Below are positions 143-11,623 of a stretch of 38,885 bases of DNA, piece after piece; within the stretch, counting starts at the first letter, position 1; each line of letters opens with the position of its first letter. The position numbers and the translations under genes were made by a program. Below the pieces are notes generated by a model, which searched no databases, was not told the origin of the DNA, and saw only the letters and a program-made list of their open reading frames with translations. This DNA is from Acidimicrobiia bacterium (GTDB taxonomy: Bacteria > Actinomycetota > Acidimicrobiia > Acidimicrobiales > MedAcidi-G1), in assembly GCA_012959995.1 (NCBI GenBank), contig DUCC01000014.1, positions 65,439 through 104,323 of the forward strand, in the 5' to 3' direction.

Positions 143-1156
143 CTAAGCCAAAGCTTCACAACACGTGTTGGTGATCAACCGGTTGACCACGTAAGGGTCC
201 ATGTTGGCGTTGGGGCGACGATCCTCGATGTAACCCTTTTGATCCAAATGGACTTGCCAAGGAATACGCACCGAAGCGCCGCGATCAGAAACCCCGTAGC
301 TGTACTCATCAAAGCGTTGCGTCTCGTGATAGCCAGTAAGGCGTTCTTCGGAACCCGTGCCGTAACCAGCCAAATGCTCAGCAATTTTACCTTCCGCCCC
401 CAATGCTTCACAAGCCGTAATTATCGGTTCGTAACCCTCACGCATCGCTTTAGTAGAAAAGTTGGTGTGCGCACCGGCGCCGTTCCAGTCGCCACGAACT
501 GGTTTGGCATCTACCGAAGCATCCACACCGAAATCTTCGGCAATGCGGTACAACAAGTAGCGAGCAACCCAAATTTCATCAGCGGCGCGCACCGTGTCGA
601 GTGGACCAATTTGGAATTCCCATTGGCCCAACATGACCTCGGCGTTGGTGCCCGAAATGGTTAAACCAGCGTTCATGCAGGCCGTGGTGTGTGCTTCAAC
701 AATGTCGCGTCCAGCAATTTCAATAGAACCCACGCCACAGTAATAAGGACCCTGCGGTGCGGGGTAACCCTCAACAGGCCAACCCAAAGGGCGACCCTCT
801 TGGAAAAAGGTGTACTCCTGTTCGATACCGAAAATCGGTTCTTGATCGCCGTACTTCTCGTAAGCAGCAACACAAGCAGCCCGCGTGTTGGTGGGGTGCG
901 GCGTCATGTTGCCATCAGGCAAACACACATCGCAAAGCACCAAAACATCGTTACCGCCTCGAATGGGATCCGGACAAACAAACACCGGACGCAGCACGCA
1001 GTCCGAATTGTCGCCCGGCGCCTGATTGGTGCTGGAACCATCAAAGCCCCAAATAGAGAACTCAGTCGTGCCGTCGGGAACAATCTTTGTTTTCGATCGC
1101 ACGTAAGGAAGCGGCTTAGTGCCGTCAATCCAAATATATTCAGCCCGCATTGCCAT
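143..1156 (-). CDS. glnII: Glutamine synthetase, type II (eukaryote-like GSII)
   Basis: ATP-dependent synthesis of glutamine from glutamate and ammonia in the cytoplasm. At 337 residues it has the short GSII length rather than the ~470 of GSI. Visible family motifs are AEYIWIDG at the N-terminus, WGFDGSST, the metal-binding GIEQEYTFF, GQWEFQIGP, GDWNGAGAHTNFST and EDRRPNANMDPY near the C-terminus. I chose ATG 1156 because a GGAAGAG ribosome binding site lies 9 bases upstream and known GSII proteins start just before AEYIWIDG; ATG codons at 1174 and 1165 sit upstream of or against that site. It is divergent from a GSI-like gene and a GlnR-like regulator, which suggests nitrogen control. A GC-rich hairpin follows the stop. 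Confidence 0.95.
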   Translation of the reverse strand: MAMRAEYIWIDGTKPLPYVRSKTKIVPDGTTEFSIWGFDGSSTNQAPGDNSDCVLRPVFVCPDPIRGGNDVLVLCDVCLPDGNMTPHPTNTRAACVAAYEKYGDQEPIFGIEQEYTFFQEGRPLGWPVEGYPAPQGPYYCGVGSIEIAGRDIVEAHTTACMNAGLTISGTNAEVMLGQWEFQIGPLDTVRAADEIWVARYLLYRIAEDFGVDASVDAKPVRGDWNGAGAHTNFSTKAMREGYEPIITACEALGAEGKIAEHLAGYGTGSEERLTGYHETQRFDEYSYGVSDRGASVRIPWQVHLDQKGYIEDRRPNANMDPYVVNRLITNTCCEALA

Positions 1157-1355
1157 ATAAATCATCTCTTCCATTTAGTGTTAATAGAAACTTACTCGTT
1201 CCCGCCAAAAGACGGGTGAATCACCCAACAGATTATGCCAAGCAGCCATCATCATGGCTTGTCGGAGTTTCCTTTTTGTTGCACAATTGTGAACAGAAGA
1301 TGAACGATTTGAAATCAATTGGCGCGAACCGATATTTTTCCTCCATGCTGGAGGA
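1157..1355. promoter_or_regulatory. Divergent intergenic control region between two glutamine synthetases
   Basis: This 199-bp gap holds starts for both directions. On the plus strand TTGAAA (1309-1314) and TATTTT (1333-1338) are 18 bases apart and could drive the GSI-like gene. There is an exact 13-base palindrome GGGTGAATCACCC (1214-1226), an overlapping imperfect repeat CCCGCC/GACGGG (1201-1216), and a 6-bp hairpin AGCCAT-CATC-ATGGCT around 1240-1257. GlnR is known to bind upstream of glutamine synthetase genes in Actinomycetota, so operator function is plausible, but I could not match a clean GlnR box. Confidence 0.45.
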
Positions 1356-2714
1356 GTGGAAACCGAAAAACCTTCTCGACGCAGCCAACAACAGGACTAC
1401 GTATTACGCACCGTAGAAGAGCGCGGGGTACGTTTAATCCGACTTTGGTTTACCGATGTGCTGGGCCAACACAAGTCAGTGGCTATCTCCCCCGCCGAGT
1501 TAGAAGCCATATTCGACGAAGGCCTCCAATTTGACGGATCGGCCATTGACGGGTTTAGCCGCATACAAGAAAGCGACGTGCTCGCTCGCCCCGACGCCTC
1601 AACCTTTGAACTCTTGCCTTGGTCCAACGAAAACGAACCCTCCGGCACCGTTTTTTGCGACATCACTAACCTTGACGGCACCCCCTTTGCCGGCGACCCT
1701 CGACAGGTGCTACGCCGCAACGTAGAAAAAGCCCGAGCCGCTGGCTTCGAAATGTTTTGCGCCCCCGAAGTTGAGTTCTTTTACTTCGCCAACAACGACC
1801 CCTCCGCCCCGCCACAACCCCTCGACCAGGCTTCCTACTTTGACCTCACCACGGCCGACGTTTCTTCAGACCTCCGCAAACGCACCTTGCATATGCTCGA
1901 AGCGCTCTCCATCCCCGTGGAATATTCATTCCACGAAGACAGCCCCAGCCAACACGAAATAGACCTGCAATACACCGATGCCATGAACATGGCCGACTCC
2001 ATCATGACCCTCCGGTTGGCCGTAAAAAAAATTGCTATGGAAAGTGGGGTCTATGCCACGTTCATGCCCAAGCCTCTCAATGGTGTTCAGGGCTCGGGCA
2101 TGCATACTCATCTTTCGCTGTTCCGAAATGACGTAAACGCTTTTCACGACCCCGACGCCGCAGACGGGCTTTCACCCACCGCACATAGTTTCATCGCCGG
2201 CCTTTTACACCACGCCCGAGAAATATCGGCCGTAACCAACCAACTCATAAACTCATATAAACGCATTAACGAAGGCCACGAAGCCCCCCGCTACGTCTCA
2301 TGGGCCCGCAACAACCGGTCGGCATTAATTCGTGTACCCATCACCAAACCAGGCAAACCCGATTCTGCCCGAGTGGAATACCGGGCCCTTGACCCGGCAT
2401 GCAACCCCTACCTGGCTTTCTCAGTTCTCCTAGCCGCCGGCCTTCGAGGCATCGAACAAAACTTGTCCCTGCCCGAAGAAGCAACCGCCAACTTGTACAA
2501 CCTGACCCGCAACGAACAACGAGACCTCGGGGTTAACCGGCTACCCGCCAGCCTGCATGAAGCCCTCGATGAAATGGAAGATTCTACTTTGATGCGTGAA
2601 GCTTTAGGGGACCACATTTTTGAATGGTTCCTGCGCAACAAACGCGCCGAATGGGACCACTACCAACAGCAAGTGACCCCCTTTGAATTGGAGCGGTACC
2701 TCCCGTCTTGGTAG
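1356..2714 (+). CDS. Glutamine synthetase, type I family (GlnA2-like)
   Basis: A 452-residue member of the GSI superfamily. Visible motifs are FDGSAIDGF, the metal-binding EVEFF, SPSQHEIDL, the ATP/ammonia region GSGMHTHLSLF, NRSALIRVP and EYRALDPACNPYLAFS. The length is that of the short, insertion-free GSI-alpha form, like mycobacterial GlnA2. A tyrosine occurs in the sequence NLYNLT, near the place of the adenylylation tyrosine of GSI-beta enzymes, but modification cannot be judged from this. GTG 1356 is the only in-frame start that keeps the N-terminus; a GGAGG lies directly against it (1350-1354), which is unusually close. It is followed after 12 bases by a GlnR-like gene, implying one operon. 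Substrate could be glutamate or, as for some GlnA paralogues, another gamma-glutamyl acceptor. Confidence 0.9.
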   Translation: METEKPSRRSQQQDYVLRTVEERGVRLIRLWFTDVLGQHKSVAISPAELEAIFDEGLQFDGSAIDGFSRIQESDVLARPDASTFELLPWSNENEPSGTVFCDITNLDGTPFAGDPRQVLRRNVEKARAAGFEMFCAPEVEFFYFANNDPSAPPQPLDQASYFDLTTADVSSDLRKRTLHMLEALSIPVEYSFHEDSPSQHEIDLQYTDAMNMADSIMTLRLAVKKIAMESGVYATFMPKPLNGVQGSGMHTHLSLFRNDVNAFHDPDAADGLSPTAHSFIAGLLHHAREISAVTNQLINSYKRINEGHEAPRYVSWARNNRSALIRVPITKPGKPDSARVEYRALDPACNPYLAFSVLLAAGLRGIEQNLSLPEEATANLYNLTRNEQRDLGVNRLPASLHEALDEMEDSTLMREALGDHIFEWFLRNKRAEWDHYQQQVTPFELERYLPSW

Positions 2715-2726
2715 CGGGCTGCTCTC

Positions 2727-3407
2727 ATGGAACCACTCCTCGTTTTCGGCAACCCGCCGCCGCCTGAACTGACCCAAGCTCTCGACATGGGCTCGTGGGC
2801 TTGGAAGCCGGTGGCCAACTACGAACAGGCCTTAACCGCCGAACCCAACGAAGGCTGGGCCGGGGCAATAATTGCCGCCGACACCGACCTGTCGGCCGCC
2901 TTAAGTTTTTGCCGGAACCTACGCCAAGGCGACAACCCGCTAAAACCTGTGTTGTTCCTGGTTAAGGCAACCCAACTCGGCGACCTCGCTTGGCGCGACG
3001 AACTCTTTGACGATTTTATTTTAACCCCGCTGCGGCCCGAAGAACTCCAAGCCCGCCTACAACACCTTTTTTGGCGCACTGGCCGAGGCACCCGCCCCGA
3101 ACTCATTGAGTACGGCCCCCTTACCCTCAACACCGAAACCTACCAAGCAGCCCTAGACGGACGGCCGCTTGACCTGACCTACATGGAATACGAACTCTTG
3201 AAGTTCTTAACCTCGCGCCCCGGCAAAGTCTTTACCCGCGAAACGCTACTCAGCGAAGTATGGGGCTACGACTACTTTGGTGGTGCCCGCACCGTCGACG
3301 TGCACGTACGTCGTCTGCGAGCGAAACTCAGCGAAGAACACGCCAACTTGATTCAAACAGTGCGCAGCGTGGGTTACCGGTTTGGGCAATCCCGCTGGGG
3401 GCTTTAA
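2727..3407 (+). CDS. glnR: GlnR-like orphan response regulator (OmpR-type winged helix)
   Basis: A 226-residue two-domain regulator. Residues ~1-110 resemble a receiver fold but start with LLVFGNPPP, so the acidic pair usual at the end of strand 1 is missing; this is typical of GlnR, which is not a classical phospho-switch. Residues ~118-222 form an OmpR/PhoB winged helix, with LTYMEYELLKFL, PGKVFTRETLLSEVWGYDY, ARTVDVHVRRLRAKL and TVRSVGYRF, very close in pattern to actinobacterial GlnR. GlnR globally controls nitrogen genes including glutamine synthetases. Position 12 bases after a glutamine synthetase gene supports the assignment. No cognate kinase gene is adjacent. Confidence 0.85.
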   Translation: MEPLLVFGNPPPPELTQALDMGSWAWKPVANYEQALTAEPNEGWAGAIIAADTDLSAALSFCRNLRQGDNPLKPVLFLVKATQLGDLAWRDELFDDFILTPLRPEELQARLQHLFWRTGRGTRPELIEYGPLTLNTETYQAALDGRPLDLTYMEYELLKFLTSRPGKVFTRETLLSEVWGYDYFGGARTVDVHVRRLRAKLSEEHANLIQTVRSVGYRFGQSRWGL

Positions 3408-3596
3408 CTAACCCTCGGTCGGGCCCTGGTAAGGGTTGGCTTCACTAACCGCAAGTAGCTCTGACCCCTCGTGGTCGGCATCTACGGTATTTTTTAACTT
3501 ACCGCCGATAACTGCCGCCCCTAAAGCGCCACTCATCAATACCCCCACGGGGATAACCACCACTAACAACACGATCATAATTATTGCGCCAATCAT
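3408..3596 (-). CDS. Small single-pass membrane protein
   Basis: A 62-residue protein with a hydrophobic segment at about residues 2-31, rich in Ile, Val, Leu and Gly, followed by a short polar tail with DADHEGSELL. This layout matches a small protein of unknown role that is common in Actinomycetota. It ends exactly one base after the convergent GlnR-like stop codon and follows ridA on the same strand by 44 bases, so it may be the last gene of that run. No clear ribosome binding site is visible. Function is unknown. Confidence 0.65.
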   Translation of the reverse strand: MIGAIIMIVLLVVVIPVGVLMSGALGAAVIGGKLKNTVDADHEGSELLAVSEANPYQGPTEG

Positions 3597-3640
3597 GGTT
3601 GCAGTCTGCCACGAAAAAGACCATGAAGCGAACCTCGGGG

Positions 3641-3988
3641 CTAACCCAAGTAAGCCTGCGCTTCAATCTCTACTTGCGCACCCAACGGCAAGGCAGCAAC
3701 CGCCACAGCAGAACGAGCCGGGCGATGGTCGCCAAAAGCCGCACAGTACAAATCGTTCATGACGGCGTAGTCGGCCATATCCACCAAAAATACGGTGGTT
3801 TTGACCACATCGGCCATGGTGGCTCCGGCCGTGGCCAGTACCTGTTCAAGGTTTTCTAAAGCCTGGTTTAGCTGAGCAGTCATGCCGCCTTCAACCAAAG
3901 CACCATCCGCAATACCTATTTGGCCGCTGGTGATCAATAAATCACCGGCACGCATAATCGGGGTATAAGGGCCAACAGGTTTCGACAT
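3641..3988 (-). CDS. ridA: RidA family enamine/imine deaminase
   Basis: A 115-residue RidA (YjgF/YER057c/UK114) protein. RidA hydrolyses reactive 2-aminoacrylate and related enamines released by PLP enzymes, protecting other enzymes. The sequence shows the family course: GPYTPIMRAG, LLITSGQIG, the central region around MADVVKTTVFLVDM, and near the C-terminus the conserved arginine and glutamate in RSAVAVAALPLGAQVEIEA. ATG 3988 is preceded by a good GGAG site. It starts 8 bases after the stop of the 2Fe-2S/XDH-like fusion, so the two are probably co-transcribed. RidA homologues often accompany purine or nitrogen catabolic enzymes. Confidence 0.9.
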   Translation of the reverse strand: MSKPVGPYTPIMRAGDLLITSGQIGIADGALVEGGMTAQLNQALENLEQVLATAGATMADVVKTTVFLVDMADYAVMNDLYCAAFGDHRPARSAVAVAALPLGAQVEIEAQAYLG

Positions 3989-3996
3989 TAATGCTC

Positions 3997-5535
3997 CTAG
4001 TTAGGTAATCCGGTAGGCCACCGAGAAGGGGTGCCCAAATGCAACCATACCGCCGCCGCTACCGCAGCGAACACTGCATCGGACCCATTTACTGGTGGAC
4101 CAGTATCTGGTTCGATAGTTACCGAAACGTGAGGCATTTCAGTGGCCCGCACCACACCAAAAGACCGCACCGTGAGGTCATGTACTTGACCCTCGGCATC
4201 TACGCTTAACGATTCAGAAGTCACCCAACTCCACGCCATGTGGGCGGCCCCTATGCAATAGGAACGCAAAACAACCGCATCTAACGGGTCACCGCAGCGC
4301 ACGGTTAACGAAATTTCTTCTGCGGAAACCGTGGCCGAAGCTACCGCACCGTTGGGGGCAACCACCGGAGACAACGACCCGGTTGCCGCAGCCAAAAGGG
4401 CTACCGCTTCGGCCCATCCAGCAGCGCGGAGATCCGCTGAGGTTGGTGGCCCTTTAAGGTCTACCTCTTCTACTTGCAGGCCGGGAGCAATCGCATTTAT
4501 GGCCTCGGTGATGCCAGGAGTGCGAGCCACCCGCACTCTTCCTTGCCCATCGGCGTTGAGGCCAGCAGCCAACGGGGGGCGCTTGCTGCCCATGCGAACT
4601 GCGTCTTCTCGGCTGAGTTGCACCAACACCGGGCGGCCATGGAGGTCCGCTAATTGGCGAGCGGCTTGCCGTACGGGGGAATCCAACTTGGCCCCGAATG
4701 CGCCGCCATTAGTTACCGGCGACGACGGCTCACCACCTGGCGCACACCATGAAGCATCGGTTTCTAAATAGGCCGGGTCCACCCAAGAGGTCTGCAAGGT
4801 GGCCGCCCAGTCCCCCGGAGGAACCGCTAAAGGAGGTTGGGACTCCACGGTGGTGCGGCGCCCTTGTATCTGGCCTGCTTGACGTCGGGCTTCGGTTAAC
4901 GACTCAGCCACCAGCCAGCCACCTTGGCCATCAGGGACCGCCACTAAACAATCATCGGGGGCCGTATCGGCAGAAAAACCGCCTTGACCAGCGGCCACCT
5001 CGGGCCCCACCGCTTGTGGCGTTCCGCCCTCTAGGGAAGCGCGTTGGGTGGCCAAGCCAGGGTCGCTCACCGGGTGGTCTTGACCAAAAGCCACCCAAGA
5101 TTCAGTAATGGTCTGCCAACCCGTGCAACGACAAAGGTGGGCGTGAAGCGAACGCGCCACCCGGTCGGGGTCCGTTTCGTCACGGGACTGCAGGTCGGCA
5201 AAACGCATAATGATACCCGGGGTACAAAACCCGCACTGTGTGCCGCCGGTAGCGCACAGAGCCTCGGTCCAACCTTGACGAGTTTCTTCTGGCAGTCCCG
5301 TCAGGGTGGTGATCTCTCGGCCGACCACTCGCCGGGCCGGGGTTACGCAAGCCACCCGGGCTTGGCCATCAACGAGCACCGTACAGCACCCGCATTGGCC
5401 TTGAGGACTGCACCCATCTTTTACGGTGGTGTTTCCGCAGTGATCACGCAGCACCTCCAACAGGGTCAACCCAATGTCTGGCACCTCAACGCTTGAACCA
5501 TCAATACGTAGCGAAAGCAAAGGGGGTGCATTCAT
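3997..5535 (-). CDS. 2Fe-2S protein fused to a shortened xanthine-dehydrogenase-like domain
   Basis: A 512-residue protein in two parts. Residues 1-~145 are the iron-sulfur subunit of the xanthine dehydrogenase/CO dehydrogenase family, with plant-type 2Fe-2S cysteines C42, C48, C51 and C63 and a second cluster set C101, C104, C135 and C137. Residues ~190-510 resemble pieces of the molybdenum subunit: GGAFGAKLDSPVRQAARQLA, GRPVLVQLSREDAVRMGSKRPP, and a C-terminal stretch like the family end (RATEMPHVSVTIEPDTGPPVNGSDA). A normal Mo subunit is about 750 residues; this is about 320 and the usual GxGE catalytic glutamate motif near the end is not seen. The FAD subunit is absent here. It could be a degenerate electron-transfer or assembly protein rather than a hydroxylase. 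Start ATG 5535 preferred over TTG 5541. Confidence 0.75.
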   Translation of the reverse strand: MNAPPLLSLRIDGSSVEVPDIGLTLLEVLRDHCGNTTVKDGCSPQGQCGCCTVLVDGQARVACVTPARRVVGREITTLTGLPEETRQGWTEALCATGGTQCGFCTPGIIMRFADLQSRDETDPDRVARSLHAHLCRCTGWQTITESWVAFGQDHPVSDPGLATQRASLEGGTPQAVGPEVAAGQGGFSADTAPDDCLVAVPDGQGGWLVAESLTEARRQAGQIQGRRTTVESQPPLAVPPGDWAATLQTSWVDPAYLETDASWCAPGGEPSSPVTNGGAFGAKLDSPVRQAARQLADLHGRPVLVQLSREDAVRMGSKRPPLAAGLNADGQGRVRVARTPGITEAINAIAPGLQVEEVDLKGPPTSADLRAAGWAEAVALLAAATGSLSPVVAPNGAVASATVSAEEISLTVRCGDPLDAVVLRSYCIGAAHMAWSWVTSESLSVDAEGQVHDLTVRSFGVVRATEMPHVSVTIEPDTGPPVNGSDAVFAAVAAAVWLHLGTPSRWPTGLPN

Positions 5536-5551
5536 AAACAAGAGTGTGCCG

Positions 5552-5582
5552 TTGTCAACGCAACAAATCCCCCCATTACACT
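5552..5582 (+). promoter_or_regulatory. Promoter of the Tat lipoprotein gene
   Basis: TTGTCA (5552-5557) and TACACT (5577-5582) are 19 bases apart, and GTG 5589 follows 6 bases after the -10 box, so the transcript would begin at or next to the start codon. Confidence 0.5.
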
Positions 5583-5588
5583 CGCATC

Positions 5589-6494
5589 GTGTATCTTCGC
5601 TCTTCGCTTACCCGCCGTCGCATGCTCTTAGGGCTCGCCGGGGTCACCGGAACCGCCGTGCTGGCAAGTTGCGGAAGTACCTCAACGCTTCCCCTAGCCA
5701 GCACCACCACCTTGGCAAAAGAGCCCACCGGTTACGGGTTAGGCGCTCGGTTCCCTGACGGATACAACTCATCAACAATAATGGCCATTGGGAGCCCTCA
5801 GCGCGCCCCTTACGTGTTGCAAGGAAGCGACGGATGGCCAATTACTGAAAACGTTCCTGACAGCATTGAGTTGATCATCGAACACGAGGGGGCAACATTG
5901 GGACCCCTCACCATTAACCGGCACGGCGAACCAGGCTCCACCCCTTATTACCCTCTCATTTTTACTCCACCGACCGTCGGGGTTTACACGGTCACTTTGA
6001 ACGGATCAACAGCCACCCATCTCTTTAAAGTAAAAGAACCCGGAGACCTGCCAATGCTTCTTGTGGGGGAACAACTCCCACCCATTGAGACACCCACCAT
6101 GATCAACCCGCAAGGCATCGAACCCGTGTGTAGCCGTTTCGAAGAGCCCTGCCCTTTTCATCAACTCTCGGTCACCGAAGCCTTAAAGCAATCTCGGCCA
6201 ATCGCAGTTTTAGTATCTACTCCCGGCTTTTGCCAAAGCGATGTTTGCGGCCCAGCAGTGGAAGTACTCATCGCCGCTATCGCTTTGCAAGAACACGACT
6301 GGTCGGTAATTCACGCCGAAGTTTATGTAGGGCCAAACAACAATGACTTTACTACCGCACCAGTAATCGATGCTTTAGGTTTGCCTTTTGAGCCCAGCCT
6401 TTATGTGGCCAATGCGCAAGGCACCATCACCGAAGTTGTTCATTTAACTATGGACCAACGTGAGGTAACCGCCGCTTTGGCTACCGCTGTCTAA
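5589..6494 (+). CDS. Tat-type lipoprotein with thioredoxin-like motif
   Basis: A 301-residue exported protein. The N-terminus has twin arginines (TRRRMLLGLAG) then a hydrophobic stretch ending in the lipobox VLASC, so it is likely folded, exported by Tat and lipid-anchored outside the membrane. Residues ~45-150 look like an immunoglobulin-like or cupredoxin-like beta domain (GVYTVTLNGS). Residues ~185-300 carry STPGFCQSDVCGPAVEVL, a pattern of actinobacterial thioredoxin/TlpA-like proteins with two cysteines four residues apart, followed by a thioredoxin-like FEPSLYVANAQG strand. GTG 5589 is chosen over GTG 5544 because it gives a normal signal peptide and fits a -10 box. A role in extracytoplasmic thiol redox is inference. 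Confidence 0.75.
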   Translation: MYLRSSLTRRRMLLGLAGVTGTAVLASCGSTSTLPLASTTTLAKEPTGYGLGARFPDGYNSSTIMAIGSPQRAPYVLQGSDGWPITENVPDSIELIIEHEGATLGPLTINRHGEPGSTPYYPLIFTPPTVGVYTVTLNGSTATHLFKVKEPGDLPMLLVGEQLPPIETPTMINPQGIEPVCSRFEEPCPFHQLSVTEALKQSRPIAVLVSTPGFCQSDVCGPAVEVLIAAIALQEHDWSVIHAEVYVGPNNNDFTTAPVIDALGLPFEPSLYVANAQGTITEVVHLTMDQREVTAALATAV

Positions 6495-6495
6495 C

Positions 6496-6810
6496 CTAGT
6501 TTTTTCCGCAACCGCAACTATGAGAAGCATCCGGGTTGTTGATAGAAAACCCTGATTGTTCAAGACCCTCTTGATAATCCAAAACCGCTCCTACCAAAAG
6601 TTCGGCGCTGGCTGGGTCAACGACTACTCGCACCGTCCCGTAGGCCTCTTCAAGGTCGTCGGTTGCTTGGTCGGTGTCGAAAAACATTTCGTAACTGGGT
6701 CCTGAACAACCGCCCGGTTTGGCAGCTACCCGCAGGGCCAAGCCTTCTTCGTCTTCGGTGGCCAACAACTCGCCCACTTTGGTTGTTGCACTTTCGGTCA
6801 AAGTAATCAT
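6496..6810 (-). CDS. erpA: A-type iron-sulfur carrier (IscA/ErpA/HesB family)
   Basis: A 104-residue Fe-S cluster carrier that hands assembled clusters to target apoproteins. The three ligand cysteines of the family are present: C35 in GGCSG and C99 and C101 in the C-terminal SCGCGKN. The fold pattern (ALRVAAKPGGCSGPSYEM, VVVDPASAELLVGAVLDY) is typical, as is the length. ATG 6810 is preceded by GAGGAGG with 7-base spacing. It faces the Mrp ATPase gene head to head across 120 bp, so two Fe-S trafficking proteins share a divergent control region. It converges with the lipoprotein gene with no gap for a separate terminator. ErpA versus other A-type names cannot be settled from sequence alone. 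Confidence 0.9.
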   Translation of the reverse strand: MITLTESATTKVGELLATEDEEGLALRVAAKPGGCSGPSYEMFFDTDQATDDLEEAYGTVRVVVDPASAELLVGAVLDYQEGLEQSGFSINNPDASHSCGCGKN

Positions 6811-6834
6811 CGGTCGGCCTCCTCAGGCGATCCT

Positions 6835-6866
6835 CTGGAGCCAAATTCTCCAGTAGCCAAAGTGTA
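6835..6866 (-). promoter_or_regulatory. erpA promoter -10 and leader hairpin/operator
   Basis: On the minus strand a TACACT box (6861-6866) is followed at the expected start of transcription by an inverted repeat with arms CTGGAG and CTCCAG (6848-6853 and 6835-6840) around a 7-base loop. It could be a regulator site or a 5' leader hairpin ahead of the Fe-S carrier gene. Confidence 0.4.
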
Positions 6867-6895
6867 GCCACTTAAAAGGATTTATCCAGCACATC

Positions 6896-6924
6896 TTGTT
6901 CACGCTCGCTTTGCGTTCTAGGCT
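6896..6924 (+). promoter_or_regulatory. Promoter of the Mrp gene
   Basis: TTGTTC (6896-6901), a 17-base spacer, and TAGGCT (6919-6924) form a good sigma70-type promoter. GTG 6931 begins only 6 bases later, so the mRNA is predicted to be leaderless. Confidence 0.6.
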
Positions 6925-6930
6925 TCACCG

Positions 6931-8094
6931 GTGGCCACTCTTCCAACTCCTGAAGAAATCATGGGTTTGCTTCGTGGGGTAATCGACCCCGAGTTAGGGA
7001 GCGACATCGTTGACCTCGGCATGGCTCGCCAAGTCACCGTGTCGCCGCAAGGTGAAGTCAACATCACCATCGCCCTCACCACTTCTGGCTGCCCGTTGCG
7101 TTCCCAAATTCAGCGCGACGCTCGAGCCCGAGTGATTGACCTTCCGGGAGTAACCCGGGTGCGTTTTACTTGGGCCGAACTGAACGCCGAAGAAAAAGCT
7201 GCCGCCATGGCCAAAGCCCGCTGGAACGTCGCCCAAGATGCCCCAGACACCGAAATACCCATTACCTGCCGGGTCCTTATGGTGGCCTCCGGAAAAGGCG
7301 GGGTAGGAAAATCTTCGGTCACCGTCAACTTGGCTGCCTCGTTAGCCCACCGAGGCTTCACCGTGGGGGTTATGGACGCCGACATTTGGGGCTACTCGGT
7401 GCCCCGCATGCTGGGTGCCGAAGGCCGCCTCGAAGCCAACGCCGAAAAAGGCCAAATCACCCCGCAAGAACTGCCCTGTGGTGACGGGCGCATAAAAATT
7501 GTTTCTATGGGGTTCTTAGTAGACAACGAAGAAACCGCTCTCATGTGGCGAGGCCTCATGTTGAATCGGGCCGTCCAACACTTTTGCCAAGACGTCACCT
7601 GGGGCGCACTTGACTACCTGCTTATTGACATGCCGCCCGGCACCGGAGACGTACAAATGGGTTTAGCTAAAATGCTGCCCCGAGCCGAAATGATCGTGGT
7701 GACCACCCCGGCCTTAGCGGCCCAAAAAGTAGCGGTACGAGTGGCCAACATGGGGCGAGCCAACTACCTGCGAGTGGTCGGAGTTATAGAAAACATGAGC
7801 GCTTACATAACCGACGATGGGCGACACCATGCACTGTTTGGCGTGGGCGGCGGCTCGGCGTTAGCAGAAGACATTGGGGCGCCACTTTTAGGCAGCATCC
7901 CCTTAGATGCCTCTGTGGCCTCCGGTGGCGACACCGGCCAACCGGTGGCCTTAGGTGCCGGACCGGCCGCTGAGGCCTACCAAGCCATCGTGGAACTTTT
8001 GGTTACTGAGGCAGCACCGCCGCTCGACATGGCAGGGTGTAGCGCCCGGCTGCTCGATGCCGCCAGCGCAGCGTTAGATGAAGCCGGGCTTTAA
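6931..8094 (+). CDS. mrp: Mrp/NBP35 family Fe-S carrier ATPase
   Basis: A 387-residue P-loop protein of the Mrp/ApbC/NBP35 group, which binds and transfers iron-sulfur clusters using ATP. Residues ~5-85 are a MIP18/DUF59 domain (GVIDPELGSDIVDLGM, TTSGCPL). The deviant Walker A GKGGVGKSS lies at 121-129, followed by GVMDADIWGYSVPRML and the Walker B-like DYLLIDMPPGTGDVQ. The ENMSAY segment is present, but the CxxC pair found after it in many Mrp proteins is replaced by ITDDGRHHALFG, a variation also known in actinobacterial homologues. GTG 6931 fits the promoter at 6896-6924. Stop overlaps the convergent fxsA stop by 3 bases. Divergent erpA supports a shared Fe-S role. Confidence 0.92.
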   Translation: MATLPTPEEIMGLLRGVIDPELGSDIVDLGMARQVTVSPQGEVNITIALTTSGCPLRSQIQRDARARVIDLPGVTRVRFTWAELNAEEKAAAMAKARWNVAQDAPDTEIPITCRVLMVASGKGGVGKSSVTVNLAASLAHRGFTVGVMDADIWGYSVPRMLGAEGRLEANAEKGQITPQELPCGDGRIKIVSMGFLVDNEETALMWRGLMLNRAVQHFCQDVTWGALDYLLIDMPPGTGDVQMGLAKMLPRAEMIVVTTPALAAQKVAVRVANMGRANYLRVVGVIENMSAYITDDGRHHALFGVGGGSALAEDIGAPLLGSIPLDASVASGGDTGQPVALGAGPAAEAYQAIVELLVTEAAPPLDMAGCSARLLDAASAALDEAGL

Positions 8095-8561
8095 CCTTTG
8101 GTTTCAGGGTTTTTGATTTCTCGCACTTCCAGCGGTTCATCATGGCGCTCGGAATACACCCACTGCACGCCTCCGGTTGTCTCACCCATAGACCCTCCTG
8201 CTCGACGCAGCAAACGCCGGCTCAAGATGGCCCGATAAAAAAACCGGGTGGGTGGAAACAACATGGTGAACCCCAAAGCATCGGTAAAAAACCCGGGGGT
8301 CAACATGAGCGCCCCACCGAACAACACCAAAAGGCCATCAACCAATTGGCGGCCCGGAAGGTTGCCTTCGGCCAATTCTTTTTGAGCCCGCCGCAGCACC
8401 CCGAGCCCTTCACGGCGCACCAACCATGCCCCCACGATGCTGACCAAAGCCAACAAGAAAATAGTGTTACCTAAACCCGCTGAATCAGCTACTTGTAGCA
8501 GCACCCAGAGCTCAACAAAGGGGATGGCCAAAAACAAAATAATGAGTAACGAAAACAACAT
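8091..8561 (-). CDS. fxsA: FxsA family membrane protein
   Basis: A 156-residue integral membrane protein of the FxsA family, known from E. coli for suppressing phage T7 exclusion by the F plasmid when overexpressed; its normal job is unclear. Visible are an N-terminal hydrophobic segment (residues 2-~22), a second at ~30-45, the family motif GAWLVRREGLGVLRRAQ, and the conserved LVDGLLVLFGGALMLTPGFFTDALGF. The tail is polar. ATG 8561 is chosen because the family begins at this hydrophobic segment and a TACTAT box ends 6 bases before it; the reading frame stays open further upstream but that part is not membrane-like and overlaps selA. Confidence 0.85.
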   Translation of the reverse strand: MLFSLLIILFLAIPFVELWVLLQVADSAGLGNTIFLLALVSIVGAWLVRREGLGVLRRAQKELAEGNLPGRQLVDGLLVLFGGALMLTPGFFTDALGFTMLFPPTRFFYRAILSRRLLRRAGGSMGETTGGVQWVYSERHDEPLEVREIKNPETKG

Positions 8562-8624
8562 GTAGCCATAGTAGAGCCCCCCGAAGGGCAGACCTTGTCG
8601 GTTTCGTCGTATCCTCAAGGTTTC

Positions 8625-9893
8625 ATGACAGAAGAACACCCACCCTCTGTTGATCGGGTTGCCCGATCGTTGGCCGATACCGGCCTGCCGCACCCGTTGT
8701 TGGTGGAAGCCGCCCGAACAGCCATCGCAGAAACTACCCCCGCCCAAGTTGTCGAAAGAGCCCGTCAGTTGGCCGAAATAACGGCCCGAAGTTTGCTCAC
8801 CGGGGTCATCAACGCCACCGGGGTGCTCTTGCACACCAACATGGGGCGCGCTCCCTGGGGCACCGCCACCGACCTCACCCGCTACACCAACCTTGAACTA
8901 AACCTCGAAGACGGCCAACGAGGTTCTCGCCAAGACCGAGCCCCCCGATTGCTGGCCCAATCTTGCGGAGCCGAAGCCGCCATGGTGGTCAACAACTGTG
9001 CCTCAGCCGTGTTGTTGGTCTTAGCCGCTTTGGCCGAAAACCAGCCGGTAGCGGTGTCACGCGGCGAGTTAGTAGAAATCGGTGGCGGCTTTCGCATTCC
9101 CGAAGTCATGGCCCAATCTGGGGCGCAACTAATAGAGGTCGGCACCACCAACCGCACCCGGCTCAGCGACTTTTCTCAAGCCGTCACGAAACAAAAAGCA
9201 GTGCTGGCGCTGAGCGTGCATCAATCCAACTATCGCATCGAAGGCTTCACCGAAGCAGTCAGCGTGGCCGAACTGGCCACCCTCGGGGTGCCGGTAATCG
9301 CCGACATAGGTTCCGGCCTTTTAGACGCCGCCTGCCCGTGGCTGGCCGATGGTCCACCTGCTTGGGTAGCCAACGAACCAGCGGCCCGCCAAACTCTGGC
9401 CGCCGGTGCCGATTTGGTGACCTTCTCGGGTGACAAACTTTTAGGCGGCCCCCAAGCAGGAGTGATTGCTGGCCGAGCCGACCTGGTAGCCGCTTGTGCC
9501 GCCCACCCGCTCGCTCGTGCCCTGCGCCCGGGGACGCTTATTTTGTCGGCTCTCGAAGACCTGGCTTTGGCTTACTTAGGACGAAACGGCGACGATATTC
9601 CTTTTTGGCGTATGGCCGCACTGTCAACGGAGTCGCTAATGGCCCGAGCCCAGTCCATAAACCCTGACTGGGCCACAAAAACCTCTGCAATGCCCGGAGG
9701 CGGCACCCTGCCCGGGGTAGAAATTCCTTCAGCCGGTCTAGTGCTTCCCGGTGATTTAAGCACCGCCTTACGAGGCAACCAGCCCCCCATTATGGGTCGG
9801 GTGGTAGACCAAACCACGGTGCTTGACCTGCGTACCGTGCACCCCGATGATGATCAGGTGCTGGCCACCGCCCTCACTAACCTGGTGGGCTAA
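8625..9893 (+). CDS. selA: L-seryl-tRNA(Sec) selenium transferase
   Basis: A 422-residue PLP enzyme that converts seryl-tRNA(Sec) to selenocysteyl-tRNA(Sec) using selenophosphate, the bacterial route of selenocysteine synthesis. Family signs are VINATGVLLHTNMGRAP, NLELNLEDGQRGSR, NNCASAVLLVLAAL, GGGFRIPEVMAQSGAQLIEVGTTN, and the PLP-lysine segment SGDKLLGGPQAG with K271. It is slightly shorter than the E. coli protein (463), mostly at the N-terminus. ATG 8625 follows an AAGG site; TTG 8595 upstream is less likely. The stop overlaps the selB start (TAATG), so the two are translationally coupled. selD and tRNA-Sec are not visible in the window. Confidence 0.95.
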   Translation: MTEEHPPSVDRVARSLADTGLPHPLLVEAARTAIAETTPAQVVERARQLAEITARSLLTGVINATGVLLHTNMGRAPWGTATDLTRYTNLELNLEDGQRGSRQDRAPRLLAQSCGAEAAMVVNNCASAVLLVLAALAENQPVAVSRGELVEIGGGFRIPEVMAQSGAQLIEVGTTNRTRLSDFSQAVTKQKAVLALSVHQSNYRIEGFTEAVSVAELATLGVPVIADIGSGLLDAACPWLADGPPAWVANEPAARQTLAAGADLVTFSGDKLLGGPQAGVIAGRADLVAACAAHPLARALRPGTLILSALEDLALAYLGRNGDDIPFWRMAALSTESLMARAQSINPDWATKTSAMPGGGTLPGVEIPSAGLVLPGDLSTALRGNQPPIMGRVVDQTTVLDLRTVHPDDDQVLATALTNLVG

Positions 9894-11623
9894 TGCACGT
9901 TGTCGCCACCGCCGGTCACGTAGACCATGGCAAGTCAACTTTAGTTAAAGCGCTCACCGGCACCGACCCCGATCGGTTTGCCGAAGAAAAATCACGCGGT
10001 TTAACCATTGATTTGGGTTTTGCTTCAACCGAATTACCGTCGGGCGCCATCCTGTCGCTAGTTGATGTGCCCGGCCATGTGCGGTTTATTAAAAACATGT
10101 TGGCTGGGGTAGGTGCCGTAGAAGCTTGTCTCTTTGTGGTGGCAGCCACCGAAGGGTGGAAACCACAGTCCGAAGAGCATTTACGCATTCTCCAACTCTT
10201 AGGGCTCAACCATGGGGTGATCGCCCTTACTAAAGTTGGGCTCTGCGACCCTGATTTAGTGGAGCTGGCGCAACTCGAAATAGAAGACCAAGTAGTGGGC
10301 ACTTTTTTAGAAGGCGCCCCGGTTATCGCCGTTGATGCGCTCACCGGGGTGGGGGTAGATGACCTTCGCCACGCCTTAGACGCTCTGTTGCTGGCCACCC
10401 CAGCAGTGGCCGACCAAAACCGGCCCCGTCTGTGGGTTGACCGAGCTTTTGCCGCTAAAGGGGCCGGCACCGTAGTAACCGGCACCTTGACCGGTGGCAC
10501 CCTGCAAGCCGACGACCACCTCGTTTTGTTGCCCCAAGAAAGCGAGGTGCGGGTCAGGTCTCTACAAAGTCATCATGCTGAACATGCCTCCATAGGCCCC
10601 GGCAGTCGTTGTGCAGTGAACTTGGTGGGGGTAAGCCATGATGAAGTAAAGCGCGGCGACGTGTTGGTGCGCCAAAACCAATGGTGGACCACCACGGTGT
10701 TCGATGCTTCACTGCAGGTGCTTGCTGCCTTAAGCCATCCGGTGTCTCGGCGAGGGGCCTTTGTGGCTTATCTGGGGGCTGGCGAACACCCGGTACGCAT
10801 GCGTATTTTGGGCCCCGATGGGCTAACCCCCGGGCAAATGGGTTCCGTGCGTATCTTTTTACCCGAAGCCTTGCCTTTGCTTCCCGGTGACCGATTTATT
10901 TTGCGAGAAAGCGGACGCTCCGAAACCATCGGAGGCGGTCAGGTGCTTGACGTTGACCCTCAAGAAAAAGCTTCTACCGCTCAACCCGACCAATCTGTTG
11001 ACCGGGTGATCAAACAACGCCGTTGGGTGAGCGTAGAAGAGTTGGAAAAACTTACCGGTGTACGCCGACCGGCCGACGTTGACCACTGGGTTGTTGATCC
11101 GGTGGCCTTACACGAAACTCTGGAACGAGTACGGAGCGCTCTGGAACAAGCCGGGCCATTAGGGCTAGAACTCTCGTCGCTTAGTGAGTACGACCGGGCC
11201 GCGGCCGGGTTGTTAGACGAAGTAACCCAAGAAGCCGGCCGGTTGGTGCCCGCTGATGCTGTTGACCCGTTAGCCGATCACCCCTTTGTGGCCTTGCTGG
11301 CCGCGGCCCCTTTTGTCCCTCCAGCCCCTGACCAGGTAGACCGAGGAGAGTTGCGAGAGTTAGTGCGTCGCGGCGATGTGGTGGAACAAGACGGCGTATT
11401 TTTTGCCGCCACAGCCATCGACCAAGCGGCACAACTGGCAGCCGCGTTGCTCCAACAACACCCAGAGGGTTTCACCGTGTCGGCTTTTCGTGAGGCAGCC
11501 GGAAACACTCGTAAACATGCTTTGCCGCTACTTGCTTGCCTGGACGGGACCGGAAAAACCCGGCGGCGAGGCGACGTTCGTATCGCCGGGCCTCGCTTAC
11601 CAGAAGTTAAAACTAAGCGCTAA
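9893..11623 (+). CDS. selB: Selenocysteine-specific elongation factor
   Basis: A 576-residue GTPase that brings selenocysteyl-tRNA to UGA codons marked by a SECIS RNA element. The G domain has GHVDHGKSTL (residues 8-17), the switch region SRGLTIDLGF typical of SelB, DVPGHVRF and a TKVG base-recognition motif. EF-Tu-like beta domains follow (~170-340). The C-terminal half is built of winged-helix repeats, ending with a family-typical NTRKHALPLLACLDGTGKTRRRGDVRIAGPR. It is coupled to selA by a one-base overlap and its end overlaps the convergent whiB by 11 bases. Presence of selA-selB predicts at least one UGA-encoded selenoprotein elsewhere in the genome. Confidence 0.95.
   Translation: MHVVATAGHVDHGKSTLVKALTGTDPDRFAEEKSRGLTIDLGFASTELPSGAILSLVDVPGHVRFIKNMLAGVGAVEACLFVVAATEGWKPQSEEHLRILQLLGLNHGVIALTKVGLCDPDLVELAQLEIEDQVVGTFLEGAPVIAVDALTGVGVDDLRHALDALLLATPAVADQNRPRLWVDRAFAAKGAGTVVTGTLTGGTLQADDHLVLLPQESEVRVRSLQSHHAEHASIGPGSRCAVNLVGVSHDEVKRGDVLVRQNQWWTTTVFDASLQVLAALSHPVSRRGAFVAYLGAGEHPVRMRILGPDGLTPGQMGSVRIFLPEALPLLPGDRFILRESGRSETIGGGQVLDVDPQEKASTAQPDQSVDRVIKQRRWVSVEELEKLTGVRRPADVDHWVVDPVALHETLERVRSALEQAGPLGLELSSLSEYDRAAAGLLDEVTQEAGRLVPADAVDPLADHPFVALLAAAPFVPPAPDQVDRGELRELVRRGDVVEQDGVFFAATAIDQAAQLAAALLQQHPEGFTVSAFREAAGNTRKHALPLLACLDGTGKTRRRGDVRIAGPRLPEVKTKR

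Follow-up and report, generated by a model that had tools for sequence, protein, structure and literature searches.

A short iron–sulfur protein with a reduced molybdenum-subunit-like lobe, conserved in Acidimicrobiia, that may work without molybdenum

The window, that is, the whole stretch of 38,885 nucleotides that was analyzed, carries a gene for a 512-residue protein in which a two-cluster iron–sulfur module is fused to a lobe resembling a shortened molybdenum (Mo) subunit. The gene, its parts and its nearest neighbors are as follows.

3997–5535, minus strand: gene of the short Fe-S/pseudo-Mo fusion; 512 residues, ATG at 5535, stop codon at 3997–3999
5095–5535, minus strand: two-cluster [2Fe-2S] module, residues 1–147, from a Fer2_2 match, PDB matches and eight invariant cysteines
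4000–5061, minus strand: shortened Mo-subunit-like lobe, residues 159–512, from alignments and the structure overlay
4687–4707, minus strand: GGAFGAK, residues 277–283, the only cofactor-site motif retained; pattern in 74 of 77 sequences
4573–4611, minus strand: REDAVRMGSKRPP, residues 309–321, counterpart of SR.E....KR.P; KRPP in 77 of 77 sequences, and R309, K318 and R319 in 81 of 81
4075–4089, minus strand: NGSDA, residues 483–487, standing where the catalytic GxGE would be; 55 of 77 sequences read GSDA where GVGE aligns
3641–3988, minus strand: RidA-type imine deaminase (PF01042, E = 5e-36), 8 bases downstream of the short gene
5544–6494, opposite orientation: divergent gene between the carrier and the short gene, with the stretch PGFCQSDVCGP and no Pfam match
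6496–6810, minus strand: A-type Fe-S carrier (IscA/ErpA-like; PF01521, E = 2e-14), upstream of the short gene

An in-frame TTG at 5541, upstream of the ATG, is an alternative start. The 8-base distance to RidA had been given by an earlier sequence-only reading and was confirmed. Farther out in the window lie genes for an Mrp-type Fe-S ATPase, SelA, SelB, a GlnR-like regulator and two glutamine synthetases. A Pfam scan of the neighbors from 143 to 11623 found neither an FAD subunit nor a Moco gene, again as the earlier reading had stated. However, the missing FAD gene carries little weight, because the closest full-length relatives, an 864-residue protein of the same genome and the Desulfovibrio aldehyde oxidoreductase MOP, are themselves Fe-S/Mo fusions; the latter has two [2Fe-2S] clusters and no FAD part.

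The same neighbors recur in related loci. RidA lies within 120 nt downstream of the short gene in 51 of the 77 loci with room for it, and 67 of the 77 have it at some position in the locus; in locus L062 a GlnE gene separates the two. Of the 67 loci long enough to show it, 65 have the A-type carrier no more than 2.5 kb upstream, and 57 of 60 have Mrp at a distance of up to 4.5 kb. The divergent gene is present in 31 of 60 loci (related genes in 42 of 80), and its position here suggests that the carrier is probably not co-transcribed with the short gene in the window.

The Fe-S module is complete. Residues 77–145 match Pfam Fer2_2 (E = 3e-15), the nearest solved chain is 1rm6_C (E = 1e-24), and the eight cluster cysteines (C42, C48, C51, C63, C101, C104, C135 and C137, with an additional C50) are retained in all 81 sequences compared and in all 11 sequences of the carrier-genome comparison, which bears out the eight-cysteine module first proposed. 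The chain 1rm6_C is the gamma subunit of 4-hydroxybenzoyl-CoA reductase, a stand-alone Fe-S subunit with a similar two-cluster module. However, that type is a separate small subunit of a Mo enzyme, whereas in the short protein the module and a Mo-like lobe form one chain, and the gene persists even in genomes that showed no MoaA or MoeA.

The lobe is more divergent. A remnant of the Mo subunit is indeed present, although it spans about 350 residues (159–512) and not the roughly 320 first estimated. MoCoBD_1 matches residues 277–324 with 21.5 bits, below the Pfam cut-off of 27, and MoCoBD_2 matches residues 410–468 with 14.9 bits, also below its cut-off. Pfam and NCBIfam scans found no domain of another family in the lobe, and no XdhC-type domain appeared among the Pfam matches of the protein at E up to 1. 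The segments GGAFGAK, REDAVRMGSKRPP and GPPVNGSDA all occur as the sequence-only reading had spelled them; the second, however, is not the family signature it was named as, and corresponds instead to SR.E....KR.P in the full-length paralogue.

This paralogue, the 864-residue Fe-S/Mo fusion, is together with TIGR03311 (selenium-dependent xanthine dehydrogenase) the closest full-length relative that we found. It scores 798 bits against TIGR03311 and the short protein 127 bits, both under the cut-off of 830. The two proteins share the same domain order, their Fe-S modules are 51% identical, and CGCC of the first cluster motif is found in 18 of 21 short forms and 16 of 16 long forms compared. Alignment with hhalign covered residues 4–380 (33% identity, probability 100%) and aligned the C-terminal stretch only separately, at 0.2% probability, so that homology of the C-terminal part rests on MAFFT and on structure. 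MAFFT aligns the proteins through to the C-terminus, and the short form lacks nine internal blocks and the C-terminal tail of the long one, 318 residues in total and 303 of them internal when blocks of fewer than 8 residues are left out of the count.

We then compared six motifs, GQG, SR.T, AFRGFG, GGQG, GGAFG.K and GVGE, which we take to line the cofactor, the first four presumably as molybdopterin-binding segments. Only GGAFG.K, which in the parent enzymes we assume to sit at the Mo ligands, is kept in the short protein. The GQG segment is gone in 76 of 77 aligned sequences, the remaining one showing a single stray letter, and the SR.T segment (SRGT) is gone in all 77; GGQG is truncated and AFRGFG changed. 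The glutamate of GxGE is catalytic, and at the aligned GVGE position the sequences not reading GSDA have CSDA (4), ASDA (4), VSDA (3) or VGDA (2), the remaining nine of the 77 not being itemized. Plain-pattern counts (G.GE in 16 of 77, GQG in 17 of 77, SR.[TS]-like in 1 of 77) also pick up occurrences in other parts of the proteins, and we prefer the aligned counts. In a tree of the Fe-S part (40 rows, L167 left out), the short and 864-residue forms group together against three other Fe-S subunits with support of 95/92; that the short form arose only once is weakly supported (53/78).

An AlphaFold model of the 512-residue protein, made with 67 aligned members, has a pLDDT of 93.5 and a pTM of 0.93. 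VIA-align superposed it on the Mo aldehyde oxidoreductase MOP of Desulfovibrio gigas (1sij) with Z = 23.7 and an rmsd of 2.9 over 478 of 512 residues at 20% identity, and rat xanthine oxidoreductase reached the same score. Foldseek also ranked 1sij first (TM-score 0.71 by query, rmsd 9.4). An overlay on an enzyme of the xanthine dehydrogenase type had been suggested as a check, and the model covers the 1sij fold over its whole length; the prediction thus shows the lobe as a Mo lobe in compact form. MOP has the same domain order and overall fold, but it is 907 residues long compared with 512, and the short protein has lost or altered both the catalytic glutamate and the cofactor segments compared.

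The short form is widespread. By score, it was assigned in 51 of 61 relatives, with the source genome counted in (E below 1e-50, some matches being fragments), and the gene is present in all 20 genomes of the source genome's own family that are rated at least 90% complete. In a sample of the class, 95 of 296 genomes match at E of 1e-60 or better, other orders among them; this number takes in a few fragments (G118 and G134 have only fragments, at contig starts), and its weak rows are uncertain, as a full-length fusion can reach about 1e-61 (second match of G253). In a sample of the phylum, 18 of 396 genomes match, every one of them in the class Acidimicrobiia, the whole-genome-level search having covered Actinomycetota. 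A search of loci returned at least 582 relatives, among which there may be full-length fusions that meet the same search pattern. We retained 80 loci, which align with the short form almost end to end, two being shortened (L102 and L113); in 76 of the 80 no stop codon interrupts the match, and the median length is 513 residues. Same-length homologues with a conserved architecture, which the earlier reading had proposed to look for, are therefore common. Its two conditions for withdrawal did not materialize: the orthologues are short as well and are not full-length Mo subunits, and we found no frameshift joining two genes. Among 1227 matching plasmid records, none matched across more than 80% of the protein. 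No paper describing the short protein was recognized among the matches listed, judged by title or the opening of the abstract.

The lobe is under constraint as well. The mean fraction of the commonest residue is 0.72 in the Mo-like lobe and 0.73 in the Fe-S part, and this near-equality suggests that the lobe has a function. Nine charged residues of the lobe (E258, K283, R309, K318, R319, E376, H432, E441 and R457) are invariant in the 81 sequences and in all 11 carrier-genome sequences. Compared with the nearest relative, which is 95% identical, the Fe-S part has an NG86 dN/dS of 0.015 and the lobe one of 0.126; with three farther relatives, most values were at or close to saturation.

Next, we analyzed Mo-related genes in 52 carriers (of the 95 in the class sample, mostly the more complete ones) and in 28 genomes where we did not find the short gene, namely 27 with no match at E of 1e-60 in the class and phylum samples and G056 among the 61 relatives. 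We found MoaC in 49 of 52 carriers and in 26 of the 28 other genomes. Nine carriers have no MoCoBD_2 match and five have only weak ones (E from 1e-6 to 8e-4), up to two of which may pass the cut-off. For MoCoBD_1, nine of these 14 carriers have no match and five have weak matches that lie within the short gene itself. By both domains, another Mo large subunit was thus not found in 14 of 52 carriers. A full Mo subunit occurs in 38 of 52 carriers compared with 18 of 28 non-carriers, that is, there is no clear correlation between Mo hydroxylases and the short gene in these genomes.

Six of the 14 carriers (G113, G158, G162, G173, G276 and G289) go further, in that neither MoeA (18 genomes tested) nor MoaA (12 tested) was found in them; in G162 and G173, MoaC was not found either. 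These absences rest on draft genomes rated 94–97% complete, which come from two families (five from f23 and one from f36). All six keep the eight Fe-S cysteines, and in all of them the carrier, the short gene and RidA follow in succession on one strand. In these drafts, the short gene thus occurs without detected MoaA and MoeA of the Moco pathway. In a further genome, G087 (L169), MoaA, MoaC and MoeA were not found, yet full Mo subunits are present; sequence may be missing there, and we did not count it with the six.

The old cofactor site varies in these six carriers. M433, in the GAAHMA stretch, is methionine in 80 of 81 sequences and also in G042, G047, G062 and G087, but each of the six carriers has another residue there, glutamine in five and alanine in G113. 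NAGAFG stands in place of NGGAFG in four of the six, and NGSDA is altered in five; G276 retains both NGSDA and NGGAFG. The change of M433 could mean that the protein has a Moco-linked job elsewhere that was lost or altered where Moco was lost. Shared descent could also explain it, since five of the six genomes belong to one family. The finding somewhat weakens a Mo-free reading and strengthens the rival in which the protein binds Moco.

Taken together, we consider it probable, at roughly two chances in three, that the gene encodes a conserved, Mo-free two-cluster redox protein whose repurposed lobe descends from a fused Fe-S/Mo hydroxylase, a judgment drawn from sequence comparison and a predicted model. 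The cysteines and the predicted fold point to two [2Fe-2S] clusters as in the parent, and the loss of cofactor segments, together with retention of the gene where MoaA and MoeA were not found, argues that molybdenum is not needed. In this scenario, a fused hydroxylase would have lost about 300 residues inside its Mo lobe to give the short protein. Both clusters would be loaded, perhaps with help from the nearby A-type carrier, and would relay or sense electrons the way those of the parent enzyme do. The shrunken lobe would then serve as a docking surface, or it may bind a different ligand through the nine invariant charged residues. The most likely role on this reasoning is that of an electron carrier or redox sensor. 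Hydroxylase activity seems unlikely, as the sequence-only reading had supposed, given that the catalytic GxGE has mostly become GSDA and that cofactor segments are lost. The electron-transfer or scaffold function that the same reading put forward is plausible. However, the presence of MoaC in nearly all carriers and of a full Mo subunit in most of them counts against a Mo-free protein, as does the near-invariance of GGAFG.K.

A more specific picture, which we offer only tentatively, is that of a hollowed-out Mo hydroxylase whose pocket holds another ligand and whose clusters act as a redox relay or sensor near the A-type carrier, RidA and glutamine synthetase genes. It is also possible, though somewhat less so, that the lobe is a new enzyme or sensor in its own right, with the Mo pocket rebuilt for another cofactor or metabolite and the clusters serving as electron path or switch. 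This would fit a lobe conserved almost as strongly as the Fe-S part, with nine charged residues that stay invariant even in genomes without detected MoaA and MoeA. However, the lobe shows no domain of another family, and several positions of the old site differ between lineages.

We find it doubtful that the protein is still a molybdoenzyme, or a Moco binder with a reduced site, at least in lineages that make Moco. The retention of GGAFG.K, the frequency of MoaC in carriers and the pattern at M433 all speak for this possibility. On the other hand, two cofactor segments are missing, the glutamine segment is truncated and the catalytic glutamate is replaced, and six carriers without detected MoaA or MoeA retain the gene.

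It appears very improbable that the protein assists the full-length Mo hydroxylases of its cell, be it as a helper, a decoy or a maturation subunit. The short protein is homologous to the 864-residue fusion of the same genome, and mixed dimers are conceivable; but 14 of 52 carriers have no other detected Mo large subunit, full Mo subunits are about equally common with and without the gene, and in the window the short gene does not lie beside a Mo subunit gene. The cofactor-handling role once suggested is not supported, given the six carriers without MoaA, MoeA or another Mo subunit and the lack of an XdhC-type domain in the Pfam matches, and we regard a Moco chaperone as unlikely; the carriers without these genes weaken both proposals. 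Finally, although the protein is far shorter than a full fusion, a decayed gene or an assembly or frameshift artifact can be dismissed, as the length and motifs recur in 80 loci and many families, the gene is under purifying selection and the predicted fold is confident.

Members of the xanthine oxidase family are usually treated as molybdenum-bound. On our best reading, the short protein would be a new variant on the xanthine oxidase fold. If the Mo-free reading is true, this would be a family member without the cofactor that is retained across much of a bacterial class under strong selection, and it would provide a test case for what the remaining enzyme machinery does without molybdenum. 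Surveys that count Mo hydroxylases from gene content may also overestimate them in these bacteria, owing to the short form.

We also considered a special link between the short gene and RidA, which was not borne out: the carrier–RidA pair persists where the short gene was not found. Among the 28 genomes of that kind, the carrier passes the threshold in 26, RidA in 24, and the two together in 23. They are same-strand neighbors no more than 3.5 kb apart in 21 of the 23 (within 250 bases in 13) and stand apart in G061 and G068, so the carrier–RidA link is independent of the short gene. The two genes (6496–6810 and 3641–3988 in the window; loci L170–L221) form an unexplained Fe-S/RidA gene pair.

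Several other observations concern the same genomes. ARAGORN found no tRNA-Sec within the window, only two tRNA-Ser genes; selA and selB lie side by side at 8595–11623, and the genome may make selenoproteins. Three records titled Thermoanaerobacterales or Acidobacteria (L074, L088 and L100) carry the short gene with part of its neighborhood, and these are perhaps mislabeled bins. The 864-residue fusion (L039, G000:C2:142044-144572) lies near further Mo hydroxylase matches (C2:146862-149521) and is perhaps a selenium-dependent or related hydroxylase.
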